Below the pieces are notes generated by a model. It saw only the letters and a list, made by a program, of their open reading frames with translations, was not told the origin of the DNA and did not search any database. DNA of 57,074 nucleotides from Veillonellaceae bacterium (lineage in GTDB: Bacteria; Bacillota; Negativicutes; Veillonellales; Negativicoccaceae): contig JALELM010000006.1 in the NCBI GenBank assembly GCA_022771805.1, forward strand, positions 1-57,074, written 5' to 3'. Below are positions 5,248-56,685 of this stretch, piece by piece (within the stretch, counting starts at the first letter, position 1; each line of letters opens with the position of its first letter). The translations under genes and the position numbers were made by a program.

Positions 5248-5363
5248 CATGCTCCCTTCCGCCTGCGAGGTTAGCTGTCGGGTTAGGGCAGAGCGGCCCT
5301 TTCCGGTACACCGGAATACACCCCGTTATCTTGGTTCCCCCGCGTGCCAATGCACTTCGGCTC

Positions 5364-37620: not shown

Positions 37621-37663
37621 AAAACAAAAGAGCCGCGAGAATCACCTCGCAGCTCTTTGTTTT
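37621..37663 (-). terminator. Intrinsic terminator of the surface operon
   Basis: On the minus strand AAAGAGC-T-GCGAG, 6-nt loop, CTCGC-G-GCTCTTT, then TGTTTTTG. It starts about 45 nt after the autotransporter stop and is flanked by A and T runs, so it may work both ways. Confidence 0.9.
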
Positions 37664-37706
37664 ACCGAAGCATTGTTTCATGCTCCCGCTTGGAAGTTAC
37701 AGCCTC

Positions 37707-40700
37707 TTAGAAGGTGTAGCGTACGCCTACGTCCGCTCTCCACTTCGTTTCCAGTTTGGCTCCGAAGGTCTGCGTATAGGTACCGTAGATGTAGGTGCCC
37801 TTTCCTAAGGAGAAGCTGCCGCCCAATTCCAGATCGAGCCAGGTATCACCGAGATCGATCTTGGTGCTCTTCCGACCGCCGTCCGTTGCAAAGAAGTCGG
37901 TCTGGAAGCGACCGCTGAACTCATGAGCCAGTGCCAGCTTCAGGTACGCATTGCCGGCGTCTGTCTTCTGCCGGCCAACGCTCAAGCCGATCCGGCCGAT
38001 GGCGCTGTTGAATGCATGCTGCGTCACGTTCATATCGCCCAGGTCGCTGTGGGCGGTGAAGTCCTTGGCATTTACTCTGCCCGCGGTAATTTCTACGCTG
38101 GGATCAAAGTAGAAGCCGTTGTCCTTCACAAACCGTCTGCCGTATTCCACGGAGAACGAGTTGCCCCAGCTGTTGTAGTCTCCATTGAGCTTGTTCCCGA
38201 TTTCGTTGGATACGTCAAACTTGTTCTTCAGCTGTCCTGTCTTGACGATGACGTCCAAATATCTTCCGTCATCGAAGGCACGCGTGCCGTAGAGCGCCAA
38301 GGTGGCCATTCGTTCCTTGCCCGTGCCGCCGGCATAACCGATGTCGCCCTCTGCATAGTCAAGAGCAACGCCGGCGATCCAGTCTCCCACTCTCTTGTCA
38401 TAGCCGACCTGACCTATGTCGTAGCTCTGGCTGATGTAGGTGTTCTGTTCGTCGAACTTGTTCTTACCGCCTACATATCTTGCCCATGCGCCGCTTTCTT
38501 CCTGACCGAGGCGCACATCGCCGAGCCGTCTCTGAAGGTCATTGTTATTGGATCTCCAAATGGTGACCACGCCCAGAAGCGCACTCTTGGTTCCTCTCAT
38601 CATCTGCGTTTCTTCGCTGCCGAATTCGATGTCGAGGTTGTTCTCTTCCGGTTTGTAATCATAGAAGCCTCTTCCATTCGCATCGAAGCTGAGATCCTCT
38701 GCTCTGAGAGCCGCGCTGCTGCTGGTGAGACCTTCCGAGATCTTCAGCTTGCCCGTGATGTTACCGTCGTTGGCAGTATAGACCAGCTTGTGAGCCAGCT
38801 GATTCAAGGTCTCGCTGACCTTGTTCTTGTTAGCCGCTAAGCCCGCTCCCTGGCCGCTTGCCGTGAGACCCTTGCTGTCGGTGATCATGTTCACCGTGGT
38901 ACCCGCATCAGCGCTGCCGATGGTGGTATCTCCGCCATAAATGGTGGTCGGCTCCTGTTCATCATGGCTGTAAATGAGATTCAGCGTGCCCGATGCATGG
39001 CCGATGTCGGTGCTGCCCGAATCCTTGGAGGATTTATCCAGCGTGCCGTTCAGCGCGTGTAGATTGGCTACCTTGCTGTCGCCCGTCTGTACCCAGATAC
39101 CGGACAGATCGACATCGGTGTTTTCGTTGTCGCTCTTGCCGGTCCAGGTGCCGCTTTCTCCGATCGTCGCCGATGTGGATCCGCTGCCCGTGGAGTTGCC
39201 GGTCCAGGTTGCCCCGTTGGACACATTGACGGACACGTTACCTTCGTTGACCACATCGCCACGGATGGCAGCGCCCTTCTCGTTCAGCGTAACCGTGATG
39301 CCGGAGCTTTCATCAGCGACAAGGTTCTGAGCCGTGCCGTTGGTGATGCTGACGCTGCCCTGATTGGCCGCAGTCACGGTGCCCTTCAGGTCGGCGCCGT
39401 TGGTGGAAATAGCACCCATATCTTCTGCAAGAATCGCGCCGTTGATGGTGCCCTTCTGCAGAGTGAGGCTGCTTCCGTCGCCTGCCGCATGGAGCGCGTT
39501 ATTTCCGTCCTCTGCGGTGATGTTCGTCATGCCGCCTGCGGTAATGGTACCTCCGTTGAGAGCTTCCATACCGGTGCCTGCCTGAATCACCGTGTCGCCT
39601 GTCATGGAGATGACGCCGCCGTCAGCCTTCACGCCGACACCTTCGTTGGCAGTAATCTTCGTGTTCCCTTCGGTGGTCACGGTCTTGCCGTTTTCTGCGG
39701 CAACCCCTACAGCACCATCGTTGGCTGTTACATTGAGCCAATCCGTAGTGGTCACATTCACATCATTGTCACTGGCATGAATGACGCCGTCATTCCGATC
39801 CGAAGCAGTGACATCGGCCGGCTTGCCGGTGAAGTCATAGCTGTCCGCGTCGTCATGGTATACGCCGGCGGGGCGATAGGTATCCTTCGAGTCCGCACTG
39901 CCGTCGATGACCTTGTCGATGGGGTTCTTCACCTGTTCGGAGGGATACACCACATCATACGCGTAGTATCCGTTGCCTGCGGTCTTACCTGCATCCGCAG
40001 CGGTGTAGTAAGAAATGTCTCCCAGCTTCATCGTCATGGACGAAGAGGTAAGCCCTTCAGCGATCTTTACGACGCCCTTCAAATGGCCGTCCGCATAGTT
40101 GCTGTAGTAAAGCTTATTGGCCAGCTTGTCCATCAGGTCATAGACCAAGTTCTGATCCTTGTAGTCCGTCGAGGTGGCATCGACCCCTGCGCTGTCGGTG
40201 AGAAGCGTGATGGTCGAACCTTCGGCAGCATTGGTGATCTTGAAATCGCCGCCGATGACGGAGGCCGCCTTATTTCCATACACCTCTGCATTCGCCCGGG
40301 TCGTATCATCCACAATTTCATGCTTGTAGATGACAGTCGTGTTGCCGCTGTAGTTGTCTACCCGGATCGGATTCGTATCGTTCTGGAAAATTACGCCCGC
40401 ATGCTCCGCATCGCTGCCGCCTGTCAATTTGGCCAAATGGCTGCCGGAGAACGCGATCCCGCCATAACCCACTTTGCCGGTGACCCCGTAGGCCTCATTG
40501 GTCCAAGTAGCGCCGTTCTGAAGCCATATATTGATGGCACCGGTATGCGTCCCTCCCCAACTCTTGTTTATCCCTTCGTCAGGGAAGGAGTTATATGCCA
40601 CGCCGGTCCAGGTAGAGTCCGCCGTGGAAAGCCCCAGATTGACGACACTGGTCTTATGGAATTCCATATCTGCTACCGCGCCGCTGGTAGCTGCCACGTT

Positions 40701-43700
40701 GCCCAACAAGTTGACCTTGTGCGTGTCTGCTCCTGTTGCCGCGCCGTCACTGCCCTTTGTCACGTTCATGCTGACCGTGGACGATTCTGCCCGGAGCGCC
40801 GCATGACCGGAGGTTGTATTGGACTTATCGATCTCAATGAAACCGCCGGCCAGAGTGATATTGGCTCCGCCCTGATTGGCAAATGCTCCGTTTCCGTTGA
40901 CCTTAAAATCCACATCTCCGGTAACATCGACCTTCTGGCCGTTGCCGGCATAAATGGCGGAGTGAGCGTAATACTTATATCCGTTTCCTCCGTCCAGCTC
41001 AAAGCCGGAGTCCCGCTTCATGGTCACATTGCCGTTGATGGTCAGCTGTTTGCCGCGTGCCGCATAGATACCCATGATATACCCGGAGCCGCCCTCTGTA
41101 TGAAGATTCAGATCCCCATTGATGGTGAGCGTGCCCGCTTCTGTATGAATACCTTCCAGCCGTCCCGTCCCGGAAACAGTCACATCGAGAGTCTTGGCAT
41201 TGATCACCGTTCCCTTCGAATTGTTGGTATTGATCGCAAAGAATGTAGCGGCACTATCATCCTTGGCGTTGATGGTCAGTGTCTTGCCCTCAGCATTGAT
41301 ATTGACCGCATGACCCGGGCCGTTGATATCAATCGCCGGGCCGGCTGTAATTTCCGCATCCTTGGTGAAGTTGTAGTTTTCCCCATCATCCACCAAAATG
41401 CCAGCGTCCACGTACGCCGTATCATTCGCTCTGACACCGGTAATGGCTTTGCCGAATTCCGTGTCACTCACGGGTTCATCCACTGCCGGGGTGTAATCGT
41501 AGTAGCCCTGACCGGCCTGCTTGGTGCCCGTGGAGTCGGTGGAGAAGGAAATATCTCCCAGCTTCTTTGTCGCGCTGGAGGCGGTGAGGCCTTCTGCGAT
41601 CTTCACAGTGCCTGCCAAATGGCCGTCCGCGTAGCCGCTGTACCACAGCTTGTTCGCCAGCTTGTTCAATACTTCGCTGACGTTATTCTTGTCCGCTGCC
41701 TTGTCGCTTGCCGCAAAGCCCGCGGTGATTCCCTTGCTGTCCGTTACAAGCGTGATGGCAGAGCCTGCCGCCGCGTTGGTGATCTTGAAGTCGCCGCCAA
41801 TGATGTTCTGCGGGTTCGTTTCGTCATGCTTGTAGAACACCGTGGTGTTGCCGCTGTAGGTATTCACGCTGATCGGGTTCGTATCATTCTGGTAAATCAC
41901 GCCCGCATGAGCCGCATCGCTGCCGCCCACCAATTTGGCCAGCTGGCTTCCCGCGTAAACCGCTTTGGAAATGGTCGTAGTGGATGCATGGGACTGCTGC
42001 TCATTGTTCCAGGATGCACCATTCTGCAGATACAGGTTGAATTCACCGACATCGTGCACGGTATTTCCGCCGCTGCCGTAATTGTCCTCGTACTGGTCAT
42101 AGGCAGCCACACCGGTCCAGGATGAATCTCCGTTGGTAAGCGCCACGTTCAGCTTGCCTGCAGCGCTCCAGTCAATCAACTCGCCGCCGCTGTATTCAAC
42201 GACCTTCTTCCCGTACTGACCGGTCACATACATATCACCGACAATCTTCGTGGTATTAGTTCCGGCCTGGTCGTTATTCATGTTGATATTGATGGTACCT
42301 TTTTCCACACGAGCCGCATAGTAGTTATGGCTCTTGTCCGCATCGGCTGCCGCCGTAATGGTGCCGCCGCCGACGGAAATCTCCGTACCTGCGCCCACCG
42401 TCCTCAGCGACGAGCCCTGCACGCCGGAAATCGCCACATTGCCGACCACATTCACCTTAGAGTTCTCTCCGATCACTGTGATACCGGCCGCATTCATGCC
42501 AAGGCCTTTCCCCCGCACGCCGTAAACCGTGTCAAGGGTCACATCCCCGTTGATAGCAACAGTGCTGTTCTTTCCTTGAACAGAAATACCCGCCGCCGAA
42601 TCTCCTTTGGTGACAATGTCCTTAATCTCTACCGGTCCGGAGACGGATAGGTTCGCATAAGTACCCTTCACGAGAATCCCATTGGCCGCTCTGGTATCGG
42701 TGTTGTTTGCCGTGAGGCTCAGCTTCTTCCCGTCGGAGCCGTTGATCCGGATCCACGTATTGTCCGTCACATAGGCGGCTGCCGCGATATTATTGCTGCT
42801 CTGGGCGCTCAGGTTCAAATCATGGCCGTTCATGTCGACTACCATGGGGTTTGTTTTGTTGTACGACGAATTTCCCGCAAACAGGGCAGCCACATACTTG
42901 CTTCCCTCATTCACCGTGACGTCTTCAACTGTAACGGTGACGCTGCCATCCGCTGCCGCCGCTCTGGTTACATGGATATCCTCCGGCGAACTGATGGGAC
43001 CCGTCTTGAAATTCACCGCCGGAGTGTAGTCGTAGTAGCCCTGGCCGGCTTTATTGGTACCCGTGGAGTTGGTGGAGAAGGAAATATCGCCCATCTTCTT
43101 TGTCGCGCTGGAGGCGGTGAGACCTTCCGCGATCTTCACGGTGCCTGTCAAACGACCGTTGGCATAGCCGCTGTACCACAGCTTGTTCGCCAGCTTGTTC
43201 AGTACTTCGCTGACGTTATTTCTGGCCGCCGCGCTATCGCTGTCCGCAAAGCCTGCGGTGATTCCCTTGCTGTCTGTTACGAGGGTAATCGACGAGCCTT
43301 CCGCCGCACTACTGATCTTGAAGTCGCCGCCGATGATGTTCTGCGGGTTCGCTGCGTCATGCTTGTAGAACACCGTGGTGTTGCCGCTGTAGTTGTCCAC
43401 CTGAATCGGGTTCGCATCGTTCTGGTAAATCATGCCCTTATCCGAGGACAGCTTGGTTATATGGCTTCCTTTAAAGGTAACGTCTTCGCCTCTGGTCTCC
43501 TGATGATACCAACTGCCGCCATTCTTCAGATAGAAGCTGAGCGTGCCGTTATCATCTTCATATTTTTTTACGGTGCCGGTCAGCTTGGAGTTCTCCGTGC
43601 CCAGACCGATATGGACATGTCCTTCGGTGTAGTAAATGCGCCCCTGCAGTACAACGTCCTTGCCCGAGACACCATCCTTCGCCGCATTCATGCCGATGTA

Positions 43701-46700
43701 CAGAGTGCCTTTAGTTCCATTAATCAGCTCATAGGATCCGGATTTATCCTGAAGATCGATGGGTGTGAGTATCGTTGTTTTGCCCTGAAGATCAATGACA
43801 TTTTTGCCTTTGCCTTCCAGGCTGCCTATATCGATGCCGCGGCCCTTAACGGATATATCCGTATCTCCTATAACTGTCAGGGAAGCTCCTTTTTCATCAT
43901 CGATATAAATACCCGTAGCAGCATAATAGGTCCCGTCGTCGTATTTTCCCATCCGAGCGGTGGATACGCCATAGCCGCCATCGTCACCTTTCATGGTCAG
44001 GCTGCCATTGATGGTCAGTTTGCTCGTATCATCGTGGTCACCGCTATTGTAGAACTGAATTCCTCTGGCTTTTCCGTCGGCAGTCTGCCTGACTTTCACG
44101 GATACATTTCCATGAATGGTGACGTCTCCGCCGCTATAGATGCGTAGCCCGCTTGCATCGCTCTTGTCCGCTTCTGCCTCTATATTCAGCTGCTTTGCTG
44201 TGACATCCGCCTTTTTATTGGCATAGAGACCGACACCATCCATGTCGTCCTGCGTACTCTTCGCCTTCAAGGTCAGCGTATGGCCCGATGCGTCCAGAGT
44301 GACATCATTCCCATCCCCCACGACCGCAGCAATGATTGTGTCGAAGTTTAAGTTTTCCTCAGTCACATCACGGTCATCGGCGGAGACGGTGTAGTCCTTT
44401 GTAAATTTATAGGTTCCGTCCTCCTGGCGGATTCCTTCCTTTACGTATTTCACGTCCTTGTCAGCCAGCCCGTAAATAGTATTGCTCATATAATCCACCG
44501 CTGGCGTATAATTGTAATATCCCTGACCGGCCTTTTTTGTTCCAGTGCTATCAGTGGAAAAAGAAATACCGCCGATTTTCTTTGCCGCACTTGAGGCAGT
44601 GAGCCCTTCCGCTATTTTTACGGTGCCCTTGAGATGTCCGTTAGTATAGCTGGTATACCACAGCTTATTGGCCAGCTTGTCCAATACTTCGCTGACGTTG
44701 TTTTTGTCCGTTGCGCTGTCACTATCCGCAAAGCCCGCGGTGATCCCCTTGCTGTCTGTCACAAGGGTGATAGACGAGCCTTCGGCAGCGTTGGCAATCT
44801 TGAAGTCACCACCGTCGATGGTCTGCGGGTTCGCTTCATCATGCTCATAGAATACAACCGTATGCCCACTGTAGCTGTCTACCCGGATCTGTTTATCACT
44901 GTCTTGGTAAATTACGCCCGCCTTGTCTGCACTTGCGCCGCCTGTCAATTTGGCCAAATGGCTTTCCTTGAAAGTGCCGGCAGTCTTGCCCCACAGCTCA
45001 TGGTTCCAGGTAGCACCGTTCTGGAGCCACAGGTTGATAGCGCCGTAGAAGGTCTTGCCTCCGGATGCATTGCCTGTGTCCTTGAATCTGTTTTGCGCCA
45101 CCCCGGTCCATTCGGATTTGCCGGTAGCAAGTCCCAAGTTGACATAGGTGTACAGTTCCGATTCATTCGGATTGATAGCCCCGGTGCTGGCTCCAATATT
45201 CCCCTTCAGGACGAGGTCATTGTCCCTTGCGCCGGTAGCGATGTAGTTTTGATCCAGATTGACGTTCATGCTGGTGGTGCCGGATTCGGCAATCATGGCG
45301 TAGTAGTTGTGGGTATTGTTCTTGTTGATTTCAATGTTCCCGCCGCCGTTGATGGTCAGCTTCGCATGGCCGCCGTTGGCAAAGAGCCCGTTTCCGTCAA
45401 TTTTCGCATTCACGTCGCCGTTGATGGTGACTTTCGGTCCCATCTGGATACTATAACTGCTTCCGCTGTACACGAGGGATACGCCATAGTAGCCCCAGGC
45501 GCCATCGATCGAGGTCAGACCCCATTCACTGGTTGCGTCACCGAGAGCGGTCACATTGCCGTTAAAGGTTCCGTCGCCGTTGCCTGCCGCATAGAGACCC
45601 AGCGCATATTGCTTGCCCCGGACCTTCATATCTATATCACCGTTGATGGTCAGCTTGTAAGGATCATCCTTATTTGTGCCTCCCTGTTCGCCTACGTTGA
45701 TAGCTTCTACACGGCCTACCAAGTTTTTCGCGTCAATGACCAGCTTGTCCGCAGTGATATTGACCCCTTTCAGGGAGCTGGTTTTGATGCCATGCACAAT
45801 ATCGCTCTGATCCGCTTTGGCGGTAATGGTCAGCGTATGGCCTGCTGCATTGACATTGACCGCATGATCCGCACCCTGCACGGAAACCCCATTGATGTTG
45901 CGCTCGCCTGACCACACATCAATGGCGGGAATCGCTTTAATTTCCGCATCCCCGGTGAAGTTATAGTTTTTCCCTTCATCCGCAAGAATACCCGCGTCCA
46001 CGTACGCCGTATCCCGATCCTTGAGACCGGTAATCGTGCCGGTCAAGGCAGGATTGGCCGGATCATCCGTGTTGGTGACGGTGTACTCATAGTAGCCCTG
46101 TCCCGCCTGATGGGTACCGGTGCTGCCTGTGGAGAAAAGGACATCTCCCAATGCCAGAGACCGACTGGAGGCGGTGAGCCCCTCCGCCACCTCTACCTTG
46201 GCAGTCAGATTGGTCGGTGCCGTGGCATATGCAGAGTAATACAGCTTGTTGGCCAACTTGTTCAGCGCATCATTGACCAGATTCTTATACTGATGCGTGC
46301 CCTTTTGGTAGTCAGAAATCCCCTTGCTGTCGGTAATCAGCGTGATCGTGGAGCCGGCAGCGGCCTTCCCGATGGTCACCTTGCCGCCGGTGAGGTTCAC
46401 CTCTTTGTTGTCATACAGAGCGGCATTCGCTCGTGTGGAATTGCTGTCCAGCGTGTGCTGGTAGAATATTTTCGTGTTCCCGCTGTAATCAGCAATGGAA
46501 ATATCCGAGGCGTAGACCTGGTGAATAATGCCTGCCGTTCCCTCGCCGGAGCCGCCGGTCAGCTTATTGATGTAGGAGACCTTGTTATACTTCCCGTACT
46601 GCGTGTTGCTGGGAGACGGCATGTTATTTACTTGCATGCCGTTCGGCAGAGACGGTGCGTCATGAATCCACCGGGCGCCGTTCTGGAGCCACAGATTGAC

Positions 46701-47687
46701 TTCGCCTGCCTGTTTTTTGCCGCTGTTGTCCACAACGCCGGTCCATTGGGAGTCTGCCGTATTCAGTCCCAGATTGATCCGTCCGTCTTGGTAGAAATAG
46801 GGCTGCCCGCTGCCATTATCGTCTCTCATGGCGATCACGTTGCCCGTGATGTCCACTACATGACCTGCCGCTTCGTTCCCGTTCATATTGATATTGATGG
46901 TGCCGCCGTAGCTGGCTGCGGCATAGAAGCTTTCCTTCGTGCTGGTGGGCGTAAGGATGGTCACGTTCCCTTTGTTGGCATTGATGACCGCCAAATCGTA
47001 GGGATCCATGGCTCCCGCCTTATAGAAAGGATCTGTTTTCAGTGCCGATCCCCGGACGGCCAGCGTCACATCTCCATTCAGGTTGATGAAGCTTCCGCCG
47101 GACATGCCTATACTTACCCCACTAGGCTGCCAGCGGGCACCGGTGTAGTTATCCGCCCAACCTGTCACATGCCCGTCCGGACCGTAGCCGCCGTGTATTT
47201 GCTTGGCATTGACTCCCCAGTTCCGGTCATCACCGGAATCGGTGAGAGCCAGAGTCGGATCTCCCATGGTCAGGTTCCCGTTGATGGTGATGTCCGCCTT
47301 TTGCCCTTCGCCGGCGCCTTCCCGGTTCATGCCCAAGCCGGTGGCAAAGCAACTCCCGCCGTAGGCCTTGATATTAAGGTTTCCATTGATTGTCACATGG
47401 CTGTCATCACCGATCATCAGACCGGACGCATTAGAATTGCCCGCGGCATTGCTGGCCACATCAATATACAGCGTCCCGGTGCCGCCGCCGATGGTGAATG
47501 TACCGGTGCTTTCCGCCGCACCGGCTATGCCGACAGCGTCATACACATTGCTCGCGGTGATGCGCGTGCCGTCCGCCACGGTCTTGTCGCCGTCCACCTC
47601 AAGCGGCGCTGCCATGGCAATCAAGCTGCCGGATAGGCTCATACCGATGAGACATGCCAGCAGTTTTTTTCGTTTTGACTGAATCAT
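37707..47687 (-). CDS. Giant classical (type Va) autotransporter with six ~500-residue repeats
   Basis: 3326 residues. A signal peptide (KRKKLLACLIGMSLSGSLIAMAA) leads to a passenger of Gly/Asn/Asp/Thr-rich beta-helix-type sequence full of short phrases such as VTINGNLNIK and DVTITGDVD. Six modules each end in a conserved block: TLVTDSKGIT, LNKLANKLWY, KIAEGLTASS and AGQGYYxYTP. The LANKL motif falls near residues 479, 1007, 1500, 2011, 2524 and 2964. The last ~290 residues (from ALLGVVTIWRSNNND) form the autotransporter barrel and end in GVRYTF with the terminal Phe for BAM recognition. GGAGG at 8-nt spacing sets the start. It is the last gene of the cobalamin-riboswitch operon. An adhesin role is likely by analogy; no protease motif was seen. 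Confidence 0.9.
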   Translation of the reverse strand: MIQSKRKKLLACLIGMSLSGSLIAMAAPLEVDGDKTVADGTRITASNVYDAVGIAGAAESTGTFTIGGGTGTLYIDVASNAAGNSNASGLMIGDDSHVTINGNLNIKAYGGSCFATGLGMNREGAGEGQKADITINGNLTMGDPTLALTDSGDDRNWGVNAKQIHGGYGPDGHVTGWADNYTGARWQPSGVSIGMSGGSFINLNGDVTLAVRGSALKTDPFYKAGAMDPYDLAVINANKGNVTILTPTSTKESFYAAASYGGTININMNGNEAAGHVVDITGNVIAMRDDNGSGQPYFYQDGRINLGLNTADSQWTGVVDNSGKKQAGEVNLWLQNGARWIHDAPSLPNGMQVNNMPSPSNTQYGKYNKVSYINKLTGGSGEGTAGIIHQVYASDISIADYSGNTKIFYQHTLDSNSTRANAALYDNKEVNLTGGKVTIGKAAAGSTITLITDSKGISDYQKGTHQYKNLVNDALNKLANKLYYSAYATAPTNLTAKVEVAEGLTASSRSLALGDVLFSTGSTGTHQAGQGYYEYTVTNTDDPANPALTGTITGLKDRDTAYVDAGILADEGKNYNFTGDAEIKAIPAIDVWSGERNINGVSVQGADHAVNVNAAGHTLTITAKADQSDIVHGIKTSSLKGVNITADKLVIDAKNLVGRVEAINVGEQGGTNKDDPYKLTINGDIDMKVRGKQYALGLYAAGNGDGTFNGNVTALGDATSEWGLTSIDGAWGYYGVSLVYSGSSYSIQMGPKVTINGDVNAKIDGNGLFANGGHAKLTINGGGNIEINKNNTHNYYAMIAESGTTSMNVNLDQNYIATGARDNDLVLKGNIGASTGAINPNESELYTYVNLGLATGKSEWTGVAQNRFKDTGNASGGKTFYGAINLWLQNGATWNHELWGKTAGTFKESHLAKLTGGASADKAGVIYQDSDKQIRVDSYSGHTVVFYEHDEANPQTIDGGDFKIANAAEGSSITLVTDSKGITAGFADSDSATDKNNVSEVLDKLANKLWYTSYTNGHLKGTVKIAEGLTASSAAKKIGGISFSTDSTGTKKAGQGYYNYTPAVDYMSNTIYGLADKDVKYVKEGIRQEDGTYKFTKDYTVSADDRDVTEENLNFDTIIAAVVGDGNDVTLDASGHTLTLKAKSTQDDMDGVGLYANKKADVTAKQLNIEAEADKSDASGLRIYSGGDVTIHGNVSVKVRQTADGKARGIQFYNSGDHDDTSKLTINGSLTMKGDDGGYGVSTARMGKYDDGTYYAATGIYIDDEKGASLTVIGDTDISVKGRGIDIGSLEGKGKNVIDLQGKTTILTPIDLQDKSGSYELINGTKGTLYIGMNAAKDGVSGKDVVLQGRIYYTEGHVHIGLGTENSKLTGTVKKYEDDNGTLSFYLKNGGSWYHQETRGEDVTFKGSHITKLSSDKGMIYQNDANPIQVDNYSGNTTVFYKHDAANPQNIIGGDFKISSAAEGSSITLVTDSKGITAGFADSDSAAARNNVSEVLNKLANKLWYSGYANGRLTGTVKIAEGLTASSATKKMGDISFSTNSTGTNKAGQGYYDYTPAVNFKTGPISSPEDIHVTRAAAADGSVTVTVEDVTVNEGSKYVAALFAGNSSYNKTNPMVVDMNGHDLNLSAQSSNNIAAAAYVTDNTWIRINGSDGKKLSLTANNTDTRAANGILVKGTYANLSVSGPVEIKDIVTKGDSAAGISVQGKNSTVAINGDVTLDTVYGVRGKGLGMNAAGITVIGENSKVNVVGNVAISGVQGSSLRTVGAGTEISVGGGTITAAADADKSHNYYAARVEKGTININMNNDQAGTNTTKIVGDMYVTGQYGKKVVEYSGGELIDWSAAGKLNVALTNGDSSWTGVAAYDQYEDNYGSGGNTVHDVGEFNLYLQNGASWNNEQQSHASTTTISKAVYAGSQLAKLVGGSDAAHAGVIYQNDTNPISVNTYSGNTTVFYKHDETNPQNIIGGDFKITNAAAGSAITLVTDSKGITAGFAASDKAADKNNVSEVLNKLANKLWYSGYADGHLAGTVKIAEGLTASSATKKLGDISFSTDSTGTKQAGQGYYDYTPAVDEPVSDTEFGKAITGVRANDTAYVDAGILVDDGENYNFTKDAEITAGPAIDINGPGHAVNINAEGKTLTINAKDDSAATFFAINTNNSKGTVINAKTLDVTVSGTGRLEGIHTEAGTLTINGDLNLHTEGGSGYIMGIYAARGKQLTINGNVTMKRDSGFELDGGNGYKYYAHSAIYAGNGQKVDVTGDVDFKVNGNGAFANQGGANITLAGGFIEIDKSNTTSGHAALRAESSTVSMNVTKGSDGAATGADTHKVNLLGNVAATSGAVADMEFHKTSVVNLGLSTADSTWTGVAYNSFPDEGINKSWGGTHTGAINIWLQNGATWTNEAYGVTGKVGYGGIAFSGSHLAKLTGGSDAEHAGVIFQNDTNPIRVDNYSGNTTVIYKHEIVDDTTRANAEVYGNKAASVIGGDFKITNAAEGSTITLLTDSAGVDATSTDYKDQNLVYDLMDKLANKLYYSNYADGHLKGVVKIAEGLTSSSMTMKLGDISYYTAADAGKTAGNGYYAYDVVYPSEQVKNPIDKVIDGSADSKDTYRPAGVYHDDADSYDFTGKPADVTASDRNDGVIHASDNDVNVTTTDWLNVTANDGAVGVAAENGKTVTTEGNTKITANEGVGVKADGGVISMTGDTVIQAGTGMEALNGGTITAGGMTNITAEDGNNALHAAGDGSSLTLQKGTINGAILAEDMGAISTNGADLKGTVTAANQGSVSITNGTAQNLVADESSGITVTLNEKGAAIRGDVVNEGNVSVNVSNGATWTGNSTGSGSTSATIGESGTWTGKSDNENTDVDLSGIWVQTGDSKVANLHALNGTLDKSSKDSGSTDIGHASGTLNLIYSHDEQEPTTIYGGDTTIGSADAGTTVNMITDSKGLTASGQGAGLAANKNKVSETLNQLAHKLVYTANDGNITGKLKISEGLTSSSAALRAEDLSFDANGRGFYDYKPEENNLDIEFGSEETQMMRGTKSALLGVVTIWRSNNNDLQRRLGDVRLGQEESGAWARYVGGKNKFDEQNTYISQSYDIGQVGYDKRVGDWIAGVALDYAEGDIGYAGGTGKERMATLALYGTRAFDDGRYLDVIVKTGQLKNKFDVSNEIGNKLNGDYNSWGNSFSVEYGRRFVKDNGFYFDPSVEITAGRVNAKDFTAHSDLGDMNVTQHAFNSAIGRIGLSVGRQKTDAGNAYLKLALAHEFSGRFQTDFFATDGGRKSTKIDLGDTWLDLELGGSFSLGKGTYIYGTYTQTFGAKLETKWRADVGVRYTF
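38780..46265 (-). repeat. Six tandem ~1.5-kb modules within the giant autotransporter
   Basis: The DNA encoding the LANKL block recurs at about 46250, 44665, 43186, 41654, 40116 and 38795, giving periods of about 1585, 1480, 1530, 1540 and 1320 bp. Around each, long stretches are nearly identical, for example the CTGTACCACAGCTTGTTCGC string near 41639 and 43171. The region is prone to copy-number change by recombination and to assembly collapse. Confidence 0.8.
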
Positions 47688-47700
47688 GCGTGTTACCTCC

Positions 47701-47734
47701 TTGTCCTAACCCTATACTTTGTCCTAACCCTATA
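47701..47734. repeat. 18-bp tandem duplication between TonB receptor and autotransporter
   Basis: TTGTCCTAACCCTATA occurs at 47701-47716 and again at 47719-47734. The second copy spans the stop codon of the receptor gene; the first adjoins the ribosome-binding site of the autotransporter. It looks like a small slippage duplication that lengthened the intercistronic gap. Confidence 0.9.
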
Positions 47735-49688
47735 TTTCCAGCTTGATCCCGGCCGTAATGATCCGACCCGGCATTGCGTACCATGTCCCCGGTTTATGTG
47801 TGCCCCAGATGACATTGGTATGCTCCGCCCAAAGCTTGTTGAATATATTATTCACCCGCAGATAGAGCGTCATTTCCTTCCGTGGCGAATAGTTGAACGA
47901 AAGATTGTATACGCCGTACTTGTCCGAGGGCCATCCCTTCGGCCCGGTGTAGTTGGGATCCTTGCGGCGGATGAAGTAGAAGCCGTCAAAGCCGGCGCTG
48001 AATTTATCATGATGATACAGAATATCAAAGGTCAGCTTGTCCTTGGGGTAGTAGCCCTTGGACAGGTTATCACCGGGCACATTCTGGTACAAATGGGCCC
48101 AGCCCAGATTGAAGCTCCAATCACTGCCCAACTGGTACAGCAACTGCGCGTTCCAGCCTCTTGCGATGCCGTAGGCAAAGTTTTCATAATGCCCGGTACC
48201 GCCCTCCTCCGGAGAGCCGGAGTAGCCGATGGAGCGGGTATTTTTCGTTTCAAACCAGTTCCAGGTAAAAGCACTGACATCATTAAAGGTGTGCGTGTAT
48301 CCCACCGAGGTGGTTCTGCCCTCGGCAGGCTTCAGATTCAAGTTACCGTATTGCTCATCATACAAATGATTCGATCCGGGCAAGATATAGAAATCATTCC
48401 GCCCTGCCCACAGGGTATCCTTGTCCGTGGCCTCGTAGCTCAGCTTATAGCTGTAGGACCGATGTGAGTCAAACCGGGGTGCATACGAATCTGCCTCCGG
48501 ACGATCCCAGCGGACGCCGCCCATGATCGTCCAGTGCGGCAGGAAACGCCATTCTTCCTGTATAAAGTAGGAGTAGTTTTCATTCCAACGATAGTCGAAA
48601 AACTGATCGCCATCTTCATCATACCCGGCAGCGAGCTTCTTATTGCTGCGCGCTTTGGAATAGTCCACCCCCAGAATCAAATCATTGGAGGAATCGGAAA
48701 AATGGATCTGCTCCGTCCAGAAATGATAGGTAAAATCGCCGCCGATACTATAGGGCTTGGTGATGCCGTTATGGTAGCCCTGATAATAATTGCTCGCAAT
48801 CGTGCTTCTTCGGAAGCTCAGCGTATTGTTCCAATGCTCATTGATCCGCCAGTGGTCCTGCAGGGTGAGACTTTCCGACGTATAATCACCGTGGTATGCG
48901 TTATCATAGATAAAGTCCTCACCCTCGAACTTAGAGTCCAGCCAGTTATAATCCGCGGAAAGCGTGTGGTCATCCGTAAAGTCGTAGGTGATCTTCGTGC
49001 CGCCGCTATTCGTGCGGGTATGGCCCGGCCAAACATTGCCGGCGCCGTCCTTCGTATCCCCGCTGCGGATCTTGTTGAAGTAGGCGCTGTACCCGAGCCG
49101 GCCGTCTCGACCCATGGCATGCAGGTTGTAACGCTCTCTGTCGCCGCTGCCCCGCGAAATATCGATGGTGGCTTTATTTTCATTGATCTTTCTGGTGATA
49201 ATGTTGATGACGCCGCCCTTGGCGCCGCTGCCGTATACGGTGGCCGCACTGTCCCGGAGTATCTCGACCCGCTCCACATTATCCATATTGCTCAACAGCG
49301 AGGAGTAGAAATAGCCCGAGTTGTCGGATCCCTGGAAATCATTGACCCGCACACCGTCTACCAAAACCACGATGTCCTTGCTTCCGTTGATACGAACGCC
49401 GCTGAGGTTCGCATTCACGCCGTTCGTGCCGTAATTCAAAAACTGCGTGCCCGGCACAGTTCGCAGTGCTTCCTCCACATCGCCGACGTGAAGTGTTTCG
49501 ATCTCTTTTCTGGTGACCACGCTGACATCTGCCTTCGCTTCAAAGAGCTTTTCCGGCTCTCGTTTCGCCGTGACTATCACCGGTGCCAACTCATATGCCC
49601 CGTCCGCCGCCTGCACCTGTCCGCAGACCCCCGTGGAAGTCGCAGCCAGCACGGCCAATAATGCGGCAAGTCCCGCTTTTCGTTTCAT
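47730..49688 (-). CDS. TonB-dependent receptor under cobalamin-riboswitch control
   Basis: 652 residues. Signal peptide (to about residue 28), TonB box ELAPVIVTAK, plug domain (DVEEALRTVPGTQF, IVVLVDGVRVNDFQ, VERVEILRDSAATVYGSGAKGGVINIIT), then a barrel. It ends in ITAGIKLEI, a C-terminus lacking a terminal Phe/Trp. The operon carries a cobalamin aptamer at 51083-51262, and B12 receptors (BtuB) are classical targets of that control, so cobalamin or a cobinamide is the best guess for the ligand. No BtuFCD genes lie nearby. It is 42 bp before the autotransporter and 165 bp after the YbjN-like gene. Confidence 0.92.
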   Translation of the reverse strand: MKRKAGLAALLAVLAATSTGVCGQVQAADGAYELAPVIVTAKREPEKLFEAKADVSVVTRKEIETLHVGDVEEALRTVPGTQFLNYGTNGVNANLSGVRINGSKDIVVLVDGVRVNDFQGSDNSGYFYSSLLSNMDNVERVEILRDSAATVYGSGAKGGVINIITRKINENKATIDISRGSGDRERYNLHAMGRDGRLGYSAYFNKIRSGDTKDGAGNVWPGHTRTNSGGTKITYDFTDDHTLSADYNWLDSKFEGEDFIYDNAYHGDYTSESLTLQDHWRINEHWNNTLSFRRSTIASNYYQGYHNGITKPYSIGGDFTYHFWTEQIHFSDSSNDLILGVDYSKARSNKKLAAGYDEDGDQFFDYRWNENYSYFIQEEWRFLPHWTIMGGVRWDRPEADSYAPRFDSHRSYSYKLSYEATDKDTLWAGRNDFYILPGSNHLYDEQYGNLNLKPAEGRTTSVGYTHTFNDVSAFTWNWFETKNTRSIGYSGSPEEGGTGHYENFAYGIARGWNAQLLYQLGSDWSFNLGWAHLYQNVPGDNLSKGYYPKDKLTFDILYHHDKFSAGFDGFYFIRRKDPNYTGPKGWPSDKYGVYNLSFNYSPRKEMTLYLRVNNIFNKLWAEHTNVIWGTHKPGTWYAMPGRIITAGIKLEI

Positions 49689-49853
49689 CGTATATTCTCC
49701 CGGAAAAATGGTAAATCAATGGACACAGACGGCATTTCCCCAACGTATCCGTATCCCATGCCCTCTTGTATCGGCAAGAGTCCCCTGCCATACCGGGCTA
49801 ATACCTGCCCGCCCGCAGGCAGGCAGGTATTACCCGAAAATTACTGTCTGAAA

Positions 49854-50318
49854 TTATTCCTTCAGCTTTGCCATGAGGGCATCATATTCCTCATTCAGCA
49901 GCCGTTCCACTTCGTTCAGGATCGCAATTACCAACGCCGGTTCGAAATGCTGTGTCCCCGCCGGCACGGATACGGAAAGAAGCACATTTCCTGCAGCGTC
50001 GCAGGTAAATTTCAGCATGCGGTACTGATTGTTCAGATCATTGAAGTACGCAGCGAGCTTTTCCTTCTTGTCCTCCTTCACCAAGCCTGAGGCGACTTGG
50101 AATTGGAGCAGCGTGTATACGCTGTTGTCCAAAAGAATCATGAAGGGGATCGCGTCCTCTTGGATCTGGAGATTGCTTCTGTAAATGATGACTTCCCCGT
50201 TTTCTCCGGCATACTGTTTGCCGAAGCCGGAAACTTTATTGGAGTCCAAATAGTCCTGCAGTGCCTTATCCTTCCTCTGTGCTACGGAAATTTCTACAAT
50301 GTTTTCTTCATTTGCCAT
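49854..50318 (-). CDS. YbjN-like protein (type III chaperone-like fold), function unknown
   Basis: 154 residues, soluble, no signal peptide. ATG at 50318 has AAGGAG at 8-nt spacing; an ATG three codons earlier is less well placed. The pattern of an alpha helix, a beta meander (EVIIYRSNLQ, PFMILLDNSVYTLLQFQVA), a helix (KLAAYFNDLNNQYRMLKF), strands (GNVLLSVSVPAG) and a final amphipathic helix matches the YbjN fold, which resembles type III secretion chaperones. Placement between an OmpH/Skp gene and two outer-membrane-protein genes suggests a cytoplasmic escort or regulator for those large clients, but this is inference. Family assignment by eye is moderate. Confidence 0.68.
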   Translation of the reverse strand: MANEENIVEISVAQRKDKALQDYLDSNKVSGFGKQYAGENGEVIIYRSNLQIQEDAIPFMILLDNSVYTLLQFQVASGLVKEDKKEKLAAYFNDLNNQYRMLKFTCDAAGNVLLSVSVPAGTQHFEPALVIAILNEVERLLNEEYDALMAKLKE

Positions 50319-50392
50319 AGTACTCACTCCTTTTGCTGCTTACTTTTTATTATTGTATGAAAAATAGCGTTCGCTTTATTGACAGCTTCCGC

Positions 50393-50821
50393 TTATTTCA
50401 GCCGGTCGATGACTTCCTGCGTCAGATCCTTACCGCCGTAGAGCCATGCGCTTTCCTGTACTACGAAGTCGATGCCGTTCTTTTTAGCCGCCGCTTCGAT
50501 GGCCGCCTGAATTTTTTGCAGCGCCGGCACGACCTTACTTCGCTGAATCGCTTCCTGTCGCATCTGCAGATCCTTCTGCAGCTTGGCCAAGAGCTCCTGC
50601 TTCTGCCGGTCGTTCATATTTTCAGACCGGGTATCGAACTGCTGCTGCAGTGCCTGCTGCGCGGATACCATCTCCCGCTGGGCTTGCGCGAATTCGGGCG
50701 ATTCCTGCAACACGGCGGCATAATTGACAAATCCGTTCCCTGCTGCAGCCGCCGCTCCCGGCAACATCAGCATGCCTGCCGCGCAGGCTCCCGAGACGAG
50801 TAATTTTTTCCAGTGCGTCAT
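50393..50821 (-). CDS. OmpH/Skp-family periplasmic chaperone
   Basis: 142 residues. Signal peptide ending in AAAAA at about residue 26, then GFVNYAAVLQESPEFAQAQREMVSAQQALQQQFD, the start of the Skp tentacle, a long Gln/Lys-rich coiled coil, and the closing strand/helix GIDFVVQESAWLYGGKDLTQEVIDRLK. Skp holds unfolded outer-membrane proteins in the periplasm. As first gene of an operon encoding a TonB receptor and a 3326-residue autotransporter it may be a dedicated copy; a housekeeping ompH is normally next to bamA, which is not in this window. AAGGAGG precedes the start, directly after a small GGGG-AACA-CCCC hairpin. Confidence 0.92.
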   Translation of the reverse strand: MTHWKKLLVSGACAAGMLMLPGAAAAAGNGFVNYAAVLQESPEFAQAQREMVSAQQALQQQFDTRSENMNDRQKQELLAKLQKDLQMRQEAIQRSKVVPALQKIQAAIEAAAKKNGIDFVVQESAWLYGGKDLTQEVIDRLK

Positions 50822-51082
50822 ATAAAATCCTCCTTAGGGGTGTTCCCCATACCATCCTGCCGCGGCAGGTCATAGTACTGCGAATCCGCAGTACATTATC
50901 CAAACAAAGAAACGGGAAAACCGCAACGCCGTTGCGCAAATTAAAAAGCACAGACCGATAAAGAACCTCCTGTTTTCAGGAAGAGACCGCTCATAATAAT
51001 GCGGCGGGCTTCTTTCGAAACCGACCGCGCGGTTTCTTGTCTTTATCCCAATCTGTGCCGTGCAAATTCACGGGATGTCTGA
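50822..51082 (-). promoter_or_regulatory. Leader between riboswitch and OmpH gene (expression platform region)
   Basis: About 260 nt of untranslated leader with several hairpins: 50965-50982 (CTTCCTG-AAAA-CAGGAGG, conserved in the second riboswitch leader at 56387-56405), one built on GTACTGC/GCAGTAC near 50875-50893, a CCTGCCGCGGCAGG palindrome near 50857-50870, and GGGG-AACA-CCCC touching the ribosome-binding site. A CTTTTTAATTT stretch follows the first hairpin after a gap. I cannot decide whether control is by termination or by occlusion of the ribosome-binding site. Confidence 0.5.
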
Positions 51083-51262
51083 AAACGGGTGGCACTCCGA
51101 CTTGATTCCTCGCCATTTCGCTCCTTTGTGAAGGGCTTGCAGCGAAACGACTCATCACACGGCTGCAGGACAGCTGCGGATTCACACCGCATTCCCCACT
51201 TGATCCTTGGCGGAAAACAAAGCGACACGCCGCACGAATTCCGATCCCCAAGACCTCCGTTT
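51083..51262 (-). promoter_or_regulatory. Cobalamin riboswitch ahead of the OmpH-TonB-autotransporter operon
   Basis: 180-nt aptamer on the minus strand, closed by AAACGG (51262-51257) pairing with CCGTTT (51088-51083). The conserved core GGGGAATGCGGTGTGAATCC is followed by GCAGCTGTCCTGCAGCC and GTGATGAG, and the 3' B12-box-like part GTCGGAGTGCCACCCG is at 51101-51086. These match the core and box order of the cobalamin (RF00174-type) family. In this family, bound B12 switches genes off. Open reading frames in this DNA are shadows of the RNA. Confidence 0.9.
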
Positions 51263-51303
51263 ACCATATTATTTTTTGATATGTCTATTCATAGATCATG
51301 CAT

Positions 51304-51334
51304 ATCATAAACCACATGACGTTCATACGGTCAA
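51304..51334 (-). promoter_or_regulatory. MerR-type promoter/operator of the surface operon
   Basis: -35 TTGACC (51334-51329) and -10 TATGAT (51309-51304) are separated by 19 bp, two more than optimal. On the plus strand a dyad, CCACATGA-CGT-TCATACGG, fills the spacer with 6 of 8 arm positions paired. Overlong spacers with a dyad between the boxes are the hallmark of promoters twisted into shape by MerR-family activators. The MerR gene lies divergently 236 bp away. Transcription would start near 51297, about 35 nt before the aptamer. Confidence 0.75.
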
Positions 51335-51502: not shown

Positions 51503-51513
51503 ATGAACATCAT
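51503..51513. promoter_or_regulatory. Possible MerR autoregulatory site
   Basis: ATGA-ACA-TCAT, followed by CGG, repeats the core ATGA-N3-TCAT of the two operators at 51314-51332 and 56715-56733 but without the outer left arm. It is 57 bp before the regulator start. I could not place clear promoter boxes around it, so this is a weak candidate. Confidence 0.35.
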
Positions 51514-51569
51514 CGGGTTACAAAACGCAAGCCAAACGGGCGCGCAACATTGCACAAGGCGGCACAGCT

Positions 51570-52400
51570 ATGAAACGGAATGATTTTTATACGGCAGGCC
51601 AGCTGGCACAGCTCTTTGCCATTTCTAAGCAAACCATGGAGTACTATGACAAGATGGGCATTTTGAAGCCTGCCTATATTGCAGAAAACGGATATCGCTA
51701 CTACGCGACGCAGCAATATTTGACGCTGGAAATTATTGTGTTCCTGCGGAAGATGGATATTCCCGTAGCAGACATCAAGGCCTTCGTGGAGAATAAATCC
51801 CACGCGGAAGCCCTGAAGCTCCTTGCAAAAAAGGAAGATGAATGCCGGAAGGAACTCATAAAAACGAAGCGGATCTTGGCCTCTCTCATCGGCTATCGGG
51901 ACACACTGGAAAAAAGCAGCACTCTTCCGCTGAATCGGGTTCTGCTTGCAAATGAAAAGGCGTGCCGCATGTATCTGACGCCGATCCCGCAGGAAAAGCG
52001 GGGCGGCCTGTCCGCGATTACCATTCGCGCCCGGCATATGCGGGAGGCCTTCTCCCGCTGCTATTGCCAGGAGAAGCCTACCGGCTGGGTGATCAGCAAA
52101 GACGATTTTTTTCATAGCCGGTTCAACCATTCCTCTGCGGTGGTGACCCTGTCCGGCCCGCCGGACTTACCCCCCCTTTGCAATTACATCCGCCCTGCCG
52201 GACTGTACACGTCGGTTCATATCAAGGGCGCCTACTTTCATCACGGCAAGGACGCGCTGGCTCTCCTGTCAGAATTCATGGAGCGGAACCGCCTCGTTCC
52301 CGACGGCGATGTATTCCTCTTCCCGGTAGTGAACTACTGGGTCACCGACGATCCGGAAAGCTACATCAATACCCTGAGCGTCAAGGTGGCACAAAAATAA
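51570..52400 (+). CDS. MerR-family transcriptional regulator with C-terminal effector domain
   Basis: 276 residues; the only protein gene on the plus strand. Residues 6-75 are the MerR winged helix (YTAGQLAQLFAISKQTMEYYDKMGIL, then ENGYRYYATQQYLTLEIIVFLRKMDIPVADIKAFV). A coiled-coil dimerisation helix follows (about 80-112), then a C-terminal domain of about 155 residues that resembles GyrI-like/BltR-type ligand-binding modules (RRGGLSAITIRARHM..., LYTSVHIKGAYFHHGKDALALLSEFMERN). No cobalamin-binding DxHxxG motif is present, so it is not CarH-like. AAGGCGG at 7-nt spacing supports the ATG. It sits between two units whose promoters have 19-bp spacers with matching dyads, so it is the natural candidate for their activator. 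Ligand unknown. Confidence 0.9.
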   Translation: MKRNDFYTAGQLAQLFAISKQTMEYYDKMGILKPAYIAENGYRYYATQQYLTLEIIVFLRKMDIPVADIKAFVENKSHAEALKLLAKKEDECRKELIKTKRILASLIGYRDTLEKSSTLPLNRVLLANEKACRMYLTPIPQEKRGGLSAITIRARHMREAFSRCYCQEKPTGWVISKDDFFHSRFNHSSAVVTLSGPPDLPPLCNYIRPAGLYTSVHIKGAYFHHGKDALALLSEFMERNRLVPDGDVFLFPVVNYWVTDDPESYINTLSVKVAQK

Positions 52401-52439: not shown

Positions 52440-52488
52440 ACAAAAAACGGCAGAGAATCCTTTTGCGGACTCCCTGCCGTTTTTGTGT
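52440..52488 (+). terminator. Terminator of the MerR gene
   Basis: AAAACGGCAG with AGAA, a T/G-rich loop, and CTGCCGTTTTTG on the plus strand, about 40 nt after the MerR stop. Flanking A and T runs also let it act on the opposite strand. Confidence 0.8.
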
Positions 52489-54939: not shown

Positions 54940-56123
54940 CGTATCTCTGCCCAGAGCGACCGCGTTGGAGCCTGAGGCTTCTGTATCTCCACCACATTCT
55001 GGTACCCCATGGCCACAGTGTTCTCATTGAGCGCCTTCGTTTTCTGACCCATAGCCACTGACTTATGTCCCGAGGCTTCCGTCCCACTTCCCATAGCTAC
55101 AGAACCATCGCCTGTAGCCGTTGCGCTACTTCCCATAGCAACGGAGGAAGGTCCCCCTGCTGTGGTGCCGGAGCCTAAAGCGATAGCATTGGATCCTGTC
55201 GCGCCGGCTCCATTCATGAGCCCTTTCCCGGTAATCGTATACACATCATGCCCGGAGCTGTTGTCCTTGGCAACCGTTACGGTTCCTTCTCCTTTGATCT
55301 CAAATGTGGCAGAGCCGCCGCTCCCGCCGACCCCTGCCATGGCTTTTTTCAACTGTGCCACGTTCACCGCGTCCGTATCTGCCGTCCCTGCGGCAAGCCC
55401 CGTGAGCTGACGGGTAATGACCGTGCCGTTTCCGTCAGTTCCGCCGCCGATGGCAATCGCGTTCCCGGTGGAAACAAAGGTGACCGATGTGTCACCGCCG
55501 GCAAGGTAGCCTTTCTGTCCTTTCGCAACGTTAGCCAAAGCATAGCTTCCGAGAGCCAGTGTGTCTGACAGGCTCGCTTTCGCCCCGACACCCACGGCCA
55601 TGGAGCCTGTGCCGCCCGCTTCCACCATGCCGCCGGAGAAGGCCACGCTGTTATCACTCATTGCCTGGGATTTTATGCCCGCGGTAAGGGCGAATTGCCC
55701 GGCAGCATTCGTAGTATCCCCCATAGCCACGGAGCCATATCCGCCCGCAGTCGACTTTTTCCCCATAGCCACTGCGTACTGACCATTTCCCTTCGCGGCC
55801 CATCCCATAGCAACAGAGCCATACCCTGAAGCTATCGAATCAACACCCATAGCGACAGAGTATTCACCATTAGCCTGCGTAGTCCAACCCATAGCGACAG
55901 CATACTGCTTGGTGGCCTTTACTTTGCGTCCGACGGCAAAGGCACCCTTAGCCGATGCTTGCGCTTGTTCTCCTATCGCAACGGCGTACTCCTCTGTCGC
56001 GCCGTCTCCGTTCTCTATATACCCAGCATAAGAAACTCCGCTCCCAATGCCTCCCAGAAGCAGGCACCATGCAGCAACACCTGCCGCTATACGTTTCATG
56101 TCCCGTTTACCAAGCCGATTCAT
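54909..56123 (-). CDS. YadA-like trimeric autotransporter, N-terminal part ended by a frameshift
   Basis: 404 codons. GGAAGG precedes the ATG at 56123. A signal peptide (AAGVAAWCLLLGGIGSGVSYAG) is followed by many 14-residue head repeats of the AVAMG-x-x-x-x-A type and a first neck/stalk (TDAVNVAQLKKAM). At 54989-54990 (minus-strand GTGGTGGAGATA) the frame is lost: the natural sequence VAMGYQNVV continues as GDTEASGSNAVALG in the -1 frame, and the listed frame ends after 22 unrelated residues. Restoring one G would rejoin both halves into a ~1154-residue adhesin. Unlike the adhesin at the left edge, this one has no ESPR. It is the first gene after the second cobalamin riboswitch. Confidence 0.88.
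   Translation of the reverse strand: MNRLGKRDMKRIAAGVAAWCLLLGGIGSGVSYAGYIENGDGATEEYAVAIGEQAQASAKGAFAVGRKVKATKQYAVAMGWTTQANGEYSVAMGVDSIASGYGSVAMGWAAKGNGQYAVAMGKKSTAGGYGSVAMGDTTNAAGQFALTAGIKSQAMSDNSVAFSGGMVEAGGTGSMAVGVGAKASLSDTLALGSYALANVAKGQKGYLAGGDTSVTFVSTGNAIAIGGGTDGNGTVITRQLTGLAAGTADTDAVNVAQLKKAMAGVGGSGGSATFEIKGEGTVTVAKDNSSGHDVYTITGKGLMNGAGATGSNAIALGSGTTAGGPSSVAMGSSATATGDGSVAMGSGTEASGHKSVAMGQKTKALNENTVAMGYQNVVEIQKPQAPTRSLWAEIRWPRRKIPLR
55335..55605 (-). repeat. Internal direct repeat, copy 2
   Basis: Partner of 54355-54625. It encodes LGSYALANVAKGQKGYLAGG through TADTDAVNVAQLKKAM. Recombination between the two copies would delete 980 bp containing the frameshift and fuse the two halves in frame. 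Confidence 0.85.
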
Positions 56124-56506
56124 ACAACCCTTCCTTTCTGCGCATTGCGCAAATACAACCGACTGTGATCTGATTCTCCGCCATGCTTTCCGGCAATCAG
56201 CCGGATCTTACCCCTTAAACCTCCTTTCACACTTCTCCACAGCAGGGACTCTATGCCGAAAGAAGCTGTTTCTTTATGTCGCAAGACATTTCTGTCTTTA
56301 CGCCCCGCTTATTATGGAAATCGCCTTCCTGTGCGCCTCCTGACGGACACGCACTTCCTATATTAAAAGCACAGGTAGATACAGAGCCTCCTGATTTTCA
56401 GGAAGAAGCCATGTGCAGGAACAAAACCGGACTCTTCACAGAACCGGCCGTATGGCTTCGTATCTGTATCCCACCTGTGCCGTGCAGATTTTGCGGGATT
56501 CTCTGA
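56124..56506 (-). promoter_or_regulatory. Leader between second riboswitch and YadA-like gene
   Basis: About 380 nt without a gene. The hairpin 56387-56405 (CTTCCTGA/TCAGGAGG) matches that of the first leader and is followed after a gap by GTGCTTTTAATA. Nothing recognisable was seen in 56140-56360. Confidence 0.45.
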
Positions 56507-56685
56507 AAACGGGTGGCACTCCGACTTGATTCTTCGCCATTTCGCTCCTTTGCGAAGGGATTGCAGCGAAACGACTCATCACACGGCTGCAGGACAGCTG
56601 CGGATTCGCACCGCATTCCCCACTTGATCCTTGGCGAAAATAAAGCGGCAAGCCGCACGAATTCCGCCCCATTAGATCTCCGTTT
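56507..56685 (-). promoter_or_regulatory. Cobalamin riboswitch ahead of the YadA-like adhesin gene
   Basis: 179-nt aptamer closed by AAACGG (56685-56680) with CCGTTT (56512-56507). The core reads GGGGAATGCGGTGCGAATCC, then GCAGCTGTCCTGCAGCC and GTGATGAG, and ends in GTCGGAGTGCCACCCG. It is nearly identical to the aptamer at 51083-51262; the GGTGCGAATCC string is closer to the family consensus here. Reading frames that overlap it have no coding support. Confidence 0.9.

Follow-up and report, generated by a model that had tools for sequence, protein, structure and literature searches.

A cobalamin riboswitch, a giant autotransporter and a TonB-dependent receptor in Negativicutes: genomic evidence pointing to a module for corrinoid acquisition at the cell surface

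The window analysed here covers positions 1 to 57,074 of contig JALELM010000006.1 (assembly GCA_022771805.1) from a Veillonellaceae bacterium of the class Negativicutes. On its minus strand it encodes an operon (operon 1) in which a cobalamin riboswitch aptamer is followed by genes for an OmpH/Skp-like chaperone, a YbjN-like protein, a TonB-dependent receptor and a giant autotransporter (AT) of 3326 aa. This gene set behind the aptamer was proposed in a preliminary description made from the sequence alone, and Pfam matches and open reading frames (ORFs) bear it out. In the direction of transcription, the features of the locus are as follows.

51304-51334, minus strand: MerR-type promoter 1, TTGACC and TATGAT separated by a 19-bp spacer with the inverted repeat ACCGTATG-aacgt-CATGTGGT (exact pattern match)
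51070-51246, minus strand: cobalamin riboswitch aptamer 1, with a variant core (Rfam RF00174, 35.6 bits, E 1.9e-5, full-length 1-189)
50942-51059, minus strand: putative expression platform 1, a branched structure with a closing stem of ~18 pairs, then UUUUU (RNAfold -51.5 kcal/mol, z -5.4)
50393-50821, minus strand: OmpH/Skp-like periplasmic chaperone, 142 aa (PF03938, 53.6 bits with a cut-off of 32.4, E 3.7e-14)
49854-50318, minus strand: YbjN/TY-chaperone-like (TY-Chap) protein, 154 aa (weak match to PF10722, 24.6 bits with a cut-off of 22)
49795-49838, minus strand: strong G+C-rich hairpin of 14 bp lacking a U-run, in the gap from YbjN to TonB (-38.3 kcal/mol, z -5.75)
47730-49688, minus strand: TonB-dependent receptor, 652 aa, BtuB/haem-receptor-like (PF07715, Plug, and PF00593, barrel)
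37707-47687, minus strand: giant AT, 3326 aa (homologues and models)
37627-37658, minus strand: intrinsic terminator of operon 1 (14-pair stem and T run)

The four genes all lie on the minus strand with intergenic gaps of 74, 165 and 42 nt, in which neither intrinsic terminators nor consensus minus-strand promoters were predicted, and their spacing suggests that they are co-transcribed. The preliminary description had seen no terminator between the genes until about position 37621, which agrees with the predictions for the gaps and with the good terminator at 37658-37627. The OmpH protein scores far under the equivalog cut-off for E. coli Skp, and the YbjN-like protein scores 26.5 against PF22551, just under the cut-off of 27; the YbjN-like proteins encoded beside giant ATs form one conserved family with 22-54% identity to that of the window (15-sequence alignment A4). 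The receptor matches TIGR01785 with 117 bits and the BtuB profile TIGR01779 with 115.2 bits, both under cut-off. Because the BtuB equivalog cut-off is 599.7, we describe the receptor as BtuB-like and do not file it as BtuB.

The AT is composed of a signal peptide, six tandem solenoid units of ~490 aa (residues 38-3019), and a C-terminal beta-barrel (~3020-3326). No Pfam match was obtained for the barrel on the window protein, and its identity comes from homologues and models: it is homologous to barrels that match PF03797 in genomes G102 (118 bits) and G144 (80 bits; aligned in A3), and the predicted model of the homologue from genome G114 contains a 12-strand barrel. The passengers of relatives consist of three to about ten such units. 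A model of the unit, built from 50 aligned units, is predicted with a pLDDT of 89 to be a beta-helix of the AT type, with UpaB (Z 19.8; 352 residues, 4.1 A) and pertactin (Z 19.7; 298 residues, 3.5 A) as best structural matches. The predicted fold is common to these proteins and would by itself reveal no function.

Scored with the Rfam cobalamin model, the aptamer that the preliminary description had placed at 51083-51262 passes the gathering score over its full length with a slight shift of coordinates (51246-51070, minus strand; 35.6 bits with the RF00174 cut-off at 31.5 bits). A second aptamer of the window, which heads a separate operon, also lies above this cut-off and is 93% identical to the first by BLAST. 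The core of the aptamer covaries, with changes on both sides in 19 of 30 predicted pairs (sequence-only MAFFT alignment of 11 homologue cores). Near the B12 box the window aptamers carry a variant, AGUCGGAGUGCCACC, the canonical version of which is present in another aptamer of the same genome. Compared with RF00174, they are full-length and share the conserved, covarying core, yet they belong to a low-scoring variant group with AGUCRGAGUGCCRCC in place of AGUCAGGAGA..CUGCC near the B12 box; this group, with its altered B12-box region, comprises some of the AT-linked aptamers (A2 core alignment; window 51082-51205, L107-L111, L116-L118). Each window aptamer is followed by a branched terminator-like structure of ~115 nt with a long closing stem, a U-run, and a stability well beyond that of shuffled sequences (0 of 200 shuffles were equally stable for platform 1, by RNAfold). 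The closing stems differ at several positions between the two copies with pairing kept by compensatory changes, and the structures probably act as termination platforms. By eye, aptamer loop L5 seemed complementary to a nearby downstream loop, as for a kissing interaction, but 371 and 239 of 1000 shuffles match or beat this pairing and it was rejected.

In order to see how far this arrangement recurs, we searched 380 genomes of the class for the AT barrel and took 40 regions regardless of riboswitches, scoring upstream DNA with Rfam and with a covariance model built from 11 variant aptamers. We counted as giant those ATs that are 1400 aa or longer and whose upstream sequence was readable, and added one AT-receptor pair found via its receptor (L055); four giant ATs at contig ends are outside the count. 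A cobalamin aptamer lies on the same strand 70-475 nt upstream in 22 of the 25 giant-AT operons, compared with a crude chance expectation of ~0.01; as the genomes are related, a binomial figure for this count is no real probability. Nineteen of these 22 aptamers pass the Rfam cut-off, and the other three (G085, G083:C118 and G084) were found by the covariance model alone, with E values of 1e-14 to 1e-16. The operons span seven GTDB families (f1, f2, f5, f14, f15, f24 and f29), and their carriers include Sporomusa ovata DSM 2662, Sporomusa sp. KB1, and Phascolarctobacterium metagenome-assembled genomes (MAGs). A contig scan with the AT barrel returned eight records and one with the TonB receptor alone returned no matches; in the plasmid collection, only distant receptors under 25% identity appeared among the matches listed. 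Small ATs (<1000 aa) of the same barrel family are preceded by an aptamer in two of ten cases (L117 and L157) and by none in the other eight.

The usual order, found in several families, is aptamer, TonB receptor (750-1000 aa), giant AT, YbjN and OmpH. Variations on it include a single aptamer and receptor followed by three consecutive giant ATs (G193; L146, L147), and OmpH-YbjN pairs that stand alone behind their own aptamers in G008 and G015, with the ATs of G008 under separate aptamers. The OmpH-YbjN aptamer of G008 scores 31.3 bits, just below the Rfam cut-off, and gives an E value of 4e-8 with the covariance model. Since OmpH-YbjN are co-regulated with the ATs even where they are unlinked, a functional tie between them is suggested. 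By BLAST and by eye, aptamer-like leaders were also seen before genes of dipeptide/nickel-type ABC transporters (L112-L115, in G099, G085, G097 and G118).

In three genomes (G114, G102 and G144) AT and TonB receptor form one polypeptide, in each case behind an aptamer. The fusion protein of G114 (rumen MAG RUG237) is 3548 aa long and consists of passenger units, the AT barrel, a linker of ~100 aa, and a receptor half that is 55% identical to the window receptor and lacks a signal peptide. The aptamer lies 70 nt upstream of this gene, and BtuF/BtuC-like ABC genes were identified by eye downstream of it. The ORFs of G102 (2895 aa) and G144 (1847 aa) both show Autotransporter, Plug and TonB barrel matches. 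In the double-barrel model of the G114 protein, the AT barrel has a pLDDT of ~80-90 and is joined by a disordered linker to a TonB receptor fold of lower confidence. Such a fusion is topologically sound, because the C-terminus of an AT and the N-terminus of a receptor, with its TonB box, are both periplasmic. The receptors near giant ATs resemble BtuB in having a plug and a 22-strand barrel, and TIGR01779 is the closest profile of nearly all of them, with all those tested far under the equivalog cut-off; the receptor adjoining an AT in G193 matches a solved BtuB end to end.

The window contains a second operon (operon 2) with the same kind of leader, and a regulator gene lies between the two operons, divergent from operon 1:

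56707-56737, minus strand: MerR-type promoter 2, TTGACC and TATGAT separated by a 19-bp spacer with the perfect palindrome ACCGCATG-attgt-CATGCGGT (pattern match)
56494-56678, minus strand: cobalamin riboswitch aptamer 2 (Rfam RF00174, 37.8 bits, E 4.6e-6)
56365-56481, minus strand: putative expression platform 2, a branched structure and UUUU (RNAfold -56 kcal/mol, z -6.35)
54909-56123, minus strand: 5' part of a YadA-like trimeric autotransporter (head repeats, stalk), 404 aa (PF05658, 132.8 bits; PF05662)
52660-54939, minus strand: 3' part of the trimeric autotransporter (head, stalk, anchor), 759 aa, in another frame (PF05658, PF05662, PF03895)
52443-52484, minus strand: intrinsic terminator of operon 2 (18-pair stem and T run)
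51570-52400, plus strand: MerR-family regulator, 276 aa (PF13411, 42.7 bits; PF00376, 32.7 bits)

Aptamer 1 thus heads the genes for OmpH, the YbjN-like protein, the TonB receptor and the 3326-aa AT, and aptamer 2 heads the trimeric autotransporter. The latter is split into two ORFs in different frames with a 31-nt overlap (54909-54939), and the split may reflect a frameshift in the gene, phase variation or an error in sequencing. Promoters under MerR control are recognised by -35 and -10 elements 19-20 bp apart and a dyad between them, and the window contains two such promoters, each TTGACC-N19-TATGAT with an inverted repeat; in promoter 1 the inner arms of the repeat, ACC..ATG/CAT..GGT, match. 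No occurrence of the promoter pattern is expected in shuffles, and the 1.44-Mb genome has no site for the operator pattern besides these two, with 0 sites for the reversed control. An ORF at 51510-52130 on the minus strand, considered as the MerR gene, is an antisense frame; the true gene is the one at 51570-52400 on the plus strand. In another genome of the same family (L067 5847-10662, plus strand; G001:C14) a relative of the window's TonB receptor gene comes immediately after a gene for a YadA-like trimeric autotransporter, and no aptamer was detectable at this pair.

Taken together, these observations point to a so far undescribed machine for catching corrinoids, including B12, at the cell surface, and we consider it probable that the operon encodes a cobalamin-controlled, AT-built module for corrinoid acquisition in the outer membrane of Negativicutes. 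In this module, the MerR-type promoter would start a leader in which the cobalamin aptamer precedes the large terminator-like structure. With plentiful intracellular cobalamin, transcription would stop at the leader, as in an OFF-switch, and under scarcity the operon would be transcribed. The TonB receptor would import the corrinoid. On the same patch of outer membrane the giant AT would display its rod of beta-helix units and cooperate physically with the receptor, as suggested by the three natural fusions and the conserved adjacency; most likely it would catch corrinoid or corrinoid-carrying material and hand it over. From their protein families and constant co-occurrence, we infer that OmpH/Skp and the YbjN-like protein specifically assist these very large outer-membrane proteins during export and assembly. 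The second promoter and switch copy would bring the trimeric autotransporter into the regulon. The claim of the preliminary description that the switch ties AT, receptor and chaperones to B12 supply is well supported by recurrence in seven families, by aptamers kept when the genes are unlinked, and by the three fusions. It had offered two roles for the AT: B12 capture fits the fusions and the BtuF/BtuC-like neighbours, and nothing specific was found in favour of binding to B12-producing neighbours.

Several observations weigh against this interpretation. The AT-receptor pair closest in gene order to that of the window (L055; G008:C44) has no aptamer, and its AT is broken by an assembly gap; the giant AT L128 in G194 has none either. 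In G110 the aptamer faces a divergent MerR gene (L125 1-831, minus strand; G110:C18) and not the TonB-AT operon, so that the AT might respond to B12 by way of the MerR regulator. With scores of no more than 35-44 bits and differences around the B12 box, the variant aptamers may have another ligand or cobamide preference. The sequence of the window receptor does not fix its substrate (115 bits with the BtuB cut-off at 599.7, and a slightly higher score for the haem-receptor subfamily). The host itself has CbiC and a CbiK-like gene and may make cobamides, as does Sporomusa ovata; auxotrophy as a reason for the system is weakened by the presence of CbiC. Lastly, AT beta-helices are usually adhesins.

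The main rival starts from this last point. Here the giant AT would be an adhesin, with B12 shortage as a cue for attaching to neighbours that make corrinoids, to host mucus or to particles; the TonB receptor would simply be co-regulated. Most beta-helical ATs of this fold class, UpaB and pertactin among them, are adhesins, Negativicutes are rich in adhesins (PMC5491611), and the second switch in the window's genome controls a YadA-like trimeric adhesin. The covalent AT-receptor fusions argue against this explanation: together with the strict adjacency of a TonB receptor in most operons, they require a shared task at the membrane. Moreover, a switch is missing from eight of the ten small ATs that share this barrel family, and we regard the adhesin explanation as unlikely.

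Less likely still is that the receptor-AT pair imports another nutrient, such as haem, a metal chelate or an organic ligand, that is needed more when B12 is short, for example in a B12-independent bypass. The window receptor does match haem-receptor and BtuB profiles about equally, the receptors near giant ATs vary between 750 and 1000 aa with mainly the plug domain in common, and in a Foldseek search with the fusion model siderophore receptors and BtuB rank near each other. However, the pair is under cobalamin aptamers across the class, TonB receptors controlled by riboswitches are most commonly those for cobalamin import, and BtuF/BtuC-like genes follow the G114 fusion.

That the window switch controls OmpH and YbjN only, with TonB-AT transcribed separately after the hairpin at ~49835-49795, is highly improbable: the 165-nt gap does hold this very stable hairpin, possibly a site of transcript processing or attenuation, and L055 keeps its coding without an aptamer, but the hairpin lacks a U-run, the gap contains no predicted promoter, and relatives have their aptamer immediately before TonB-AT or AT.

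The remaining two cobalamin aptamers of the window's genome are high-scoring. One, with 99 bits the highest-scoring of the genome (L006 10074-10245, minus strand; G000:C2:114073-114244), has no clear gene immediately 3' of it, where a tRNA-like stretch and then other genes are found. The other, a canonical aptamer (L007 3129-3302, plus strand; G000:C6:39128-39301), precedes the gene for methylmalonyl-CoA mutase, a B12-dependent enzyme; CbiK-like and BtuF-like genes lie upstream of it in divergent orientation, with CbiC close by (C6:33627-34211). Elsewhere in the window, two other structured RNAs were found on the minus strand:

5247-5372, minus strand: c-di-AMP riboswitch (RF00379, 87.3 bits)
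25646-25795, minus strand: 6S RNA (RF00013, 63.4 bits)

The nearest known parallel to the proposed corrinoid-acquisition module is the BtuB-BtuG(-BtuH) system of Bacteroides, in which riboswitch-controlled loci encode a TonB-dependent B12 receptor and its surface lid (PMC10404256); according to the same authors, lipoprotein-capped TonB receptors seem exclusive to Bacteroidetes (PMC10404256). In both systems, loci under cobalamin riboswitches combine a TonB receptor with a surface protein devoted to it, with corrinoid binding presumed for the one described here. Whereas BtuG is a lipid-anchored lid, the partner here is a giant type Va AT of beta-helix units, anchored by a barrel, carrying an ordinary signal peptide, and sometimes fused to the receptor. 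Because the partner is anchored differently, the system is not a member of the BtuB-BtuG family. We tentatively propose, at somewhat less than even chances, that the solenoid units of the giant AT themselves bind corrinoids and hand them on to the TonB receptor, whether adjacent or fused. The AT would then be a counterpart of BtuG/BtuH in diderm Firmicutes that is neither a lipoprotein nor homologous to them, and the AT-TonB receptor double-barrel proteins would be a new outer-membrane architecture.

With type Va autotransporters such as UpaB, pertactin and antigen 43 the giant ATs share a signal peptide, a beta-helical passenger and a C-terminal barrel; they differ from the classical members in their length of 2100-4700 aa, their tandem ~490-aa units, their cobalamin switch, and their position beside or fused to a TonB receptor. 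In Veillonella parvula, autotransporters and Skp/OmpH are reported from the outer-membrane fraction (PMC5491611); the text of that report mentions neither riboswitch nor BtuB, and no aptamer lies upstream of the small Veillonella ATs examined. Among open papers, we found none that joins a cobalamin riboswitch with an autotransporter, or an autotransporter with cobalamin and Negativicutes. Likewise, none was found on an AT-TonB receptor system under a cobalamin riboswitch, with subscription papers and preprints outside the search and a prior description therefore possible.

If diderm Firmicutes do use a giant AT for surface-assisted uptake, this would give some of their largest surface proteins a role. 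It would also link YbjN and OmpH to outer-membrane assembly and show the barrels of an AT and a TonB receptor fused in one chain. As Sporomusa ovata DSM 2662 carries the system, a named strain is at hand in which its control by B12 could be tested directly.

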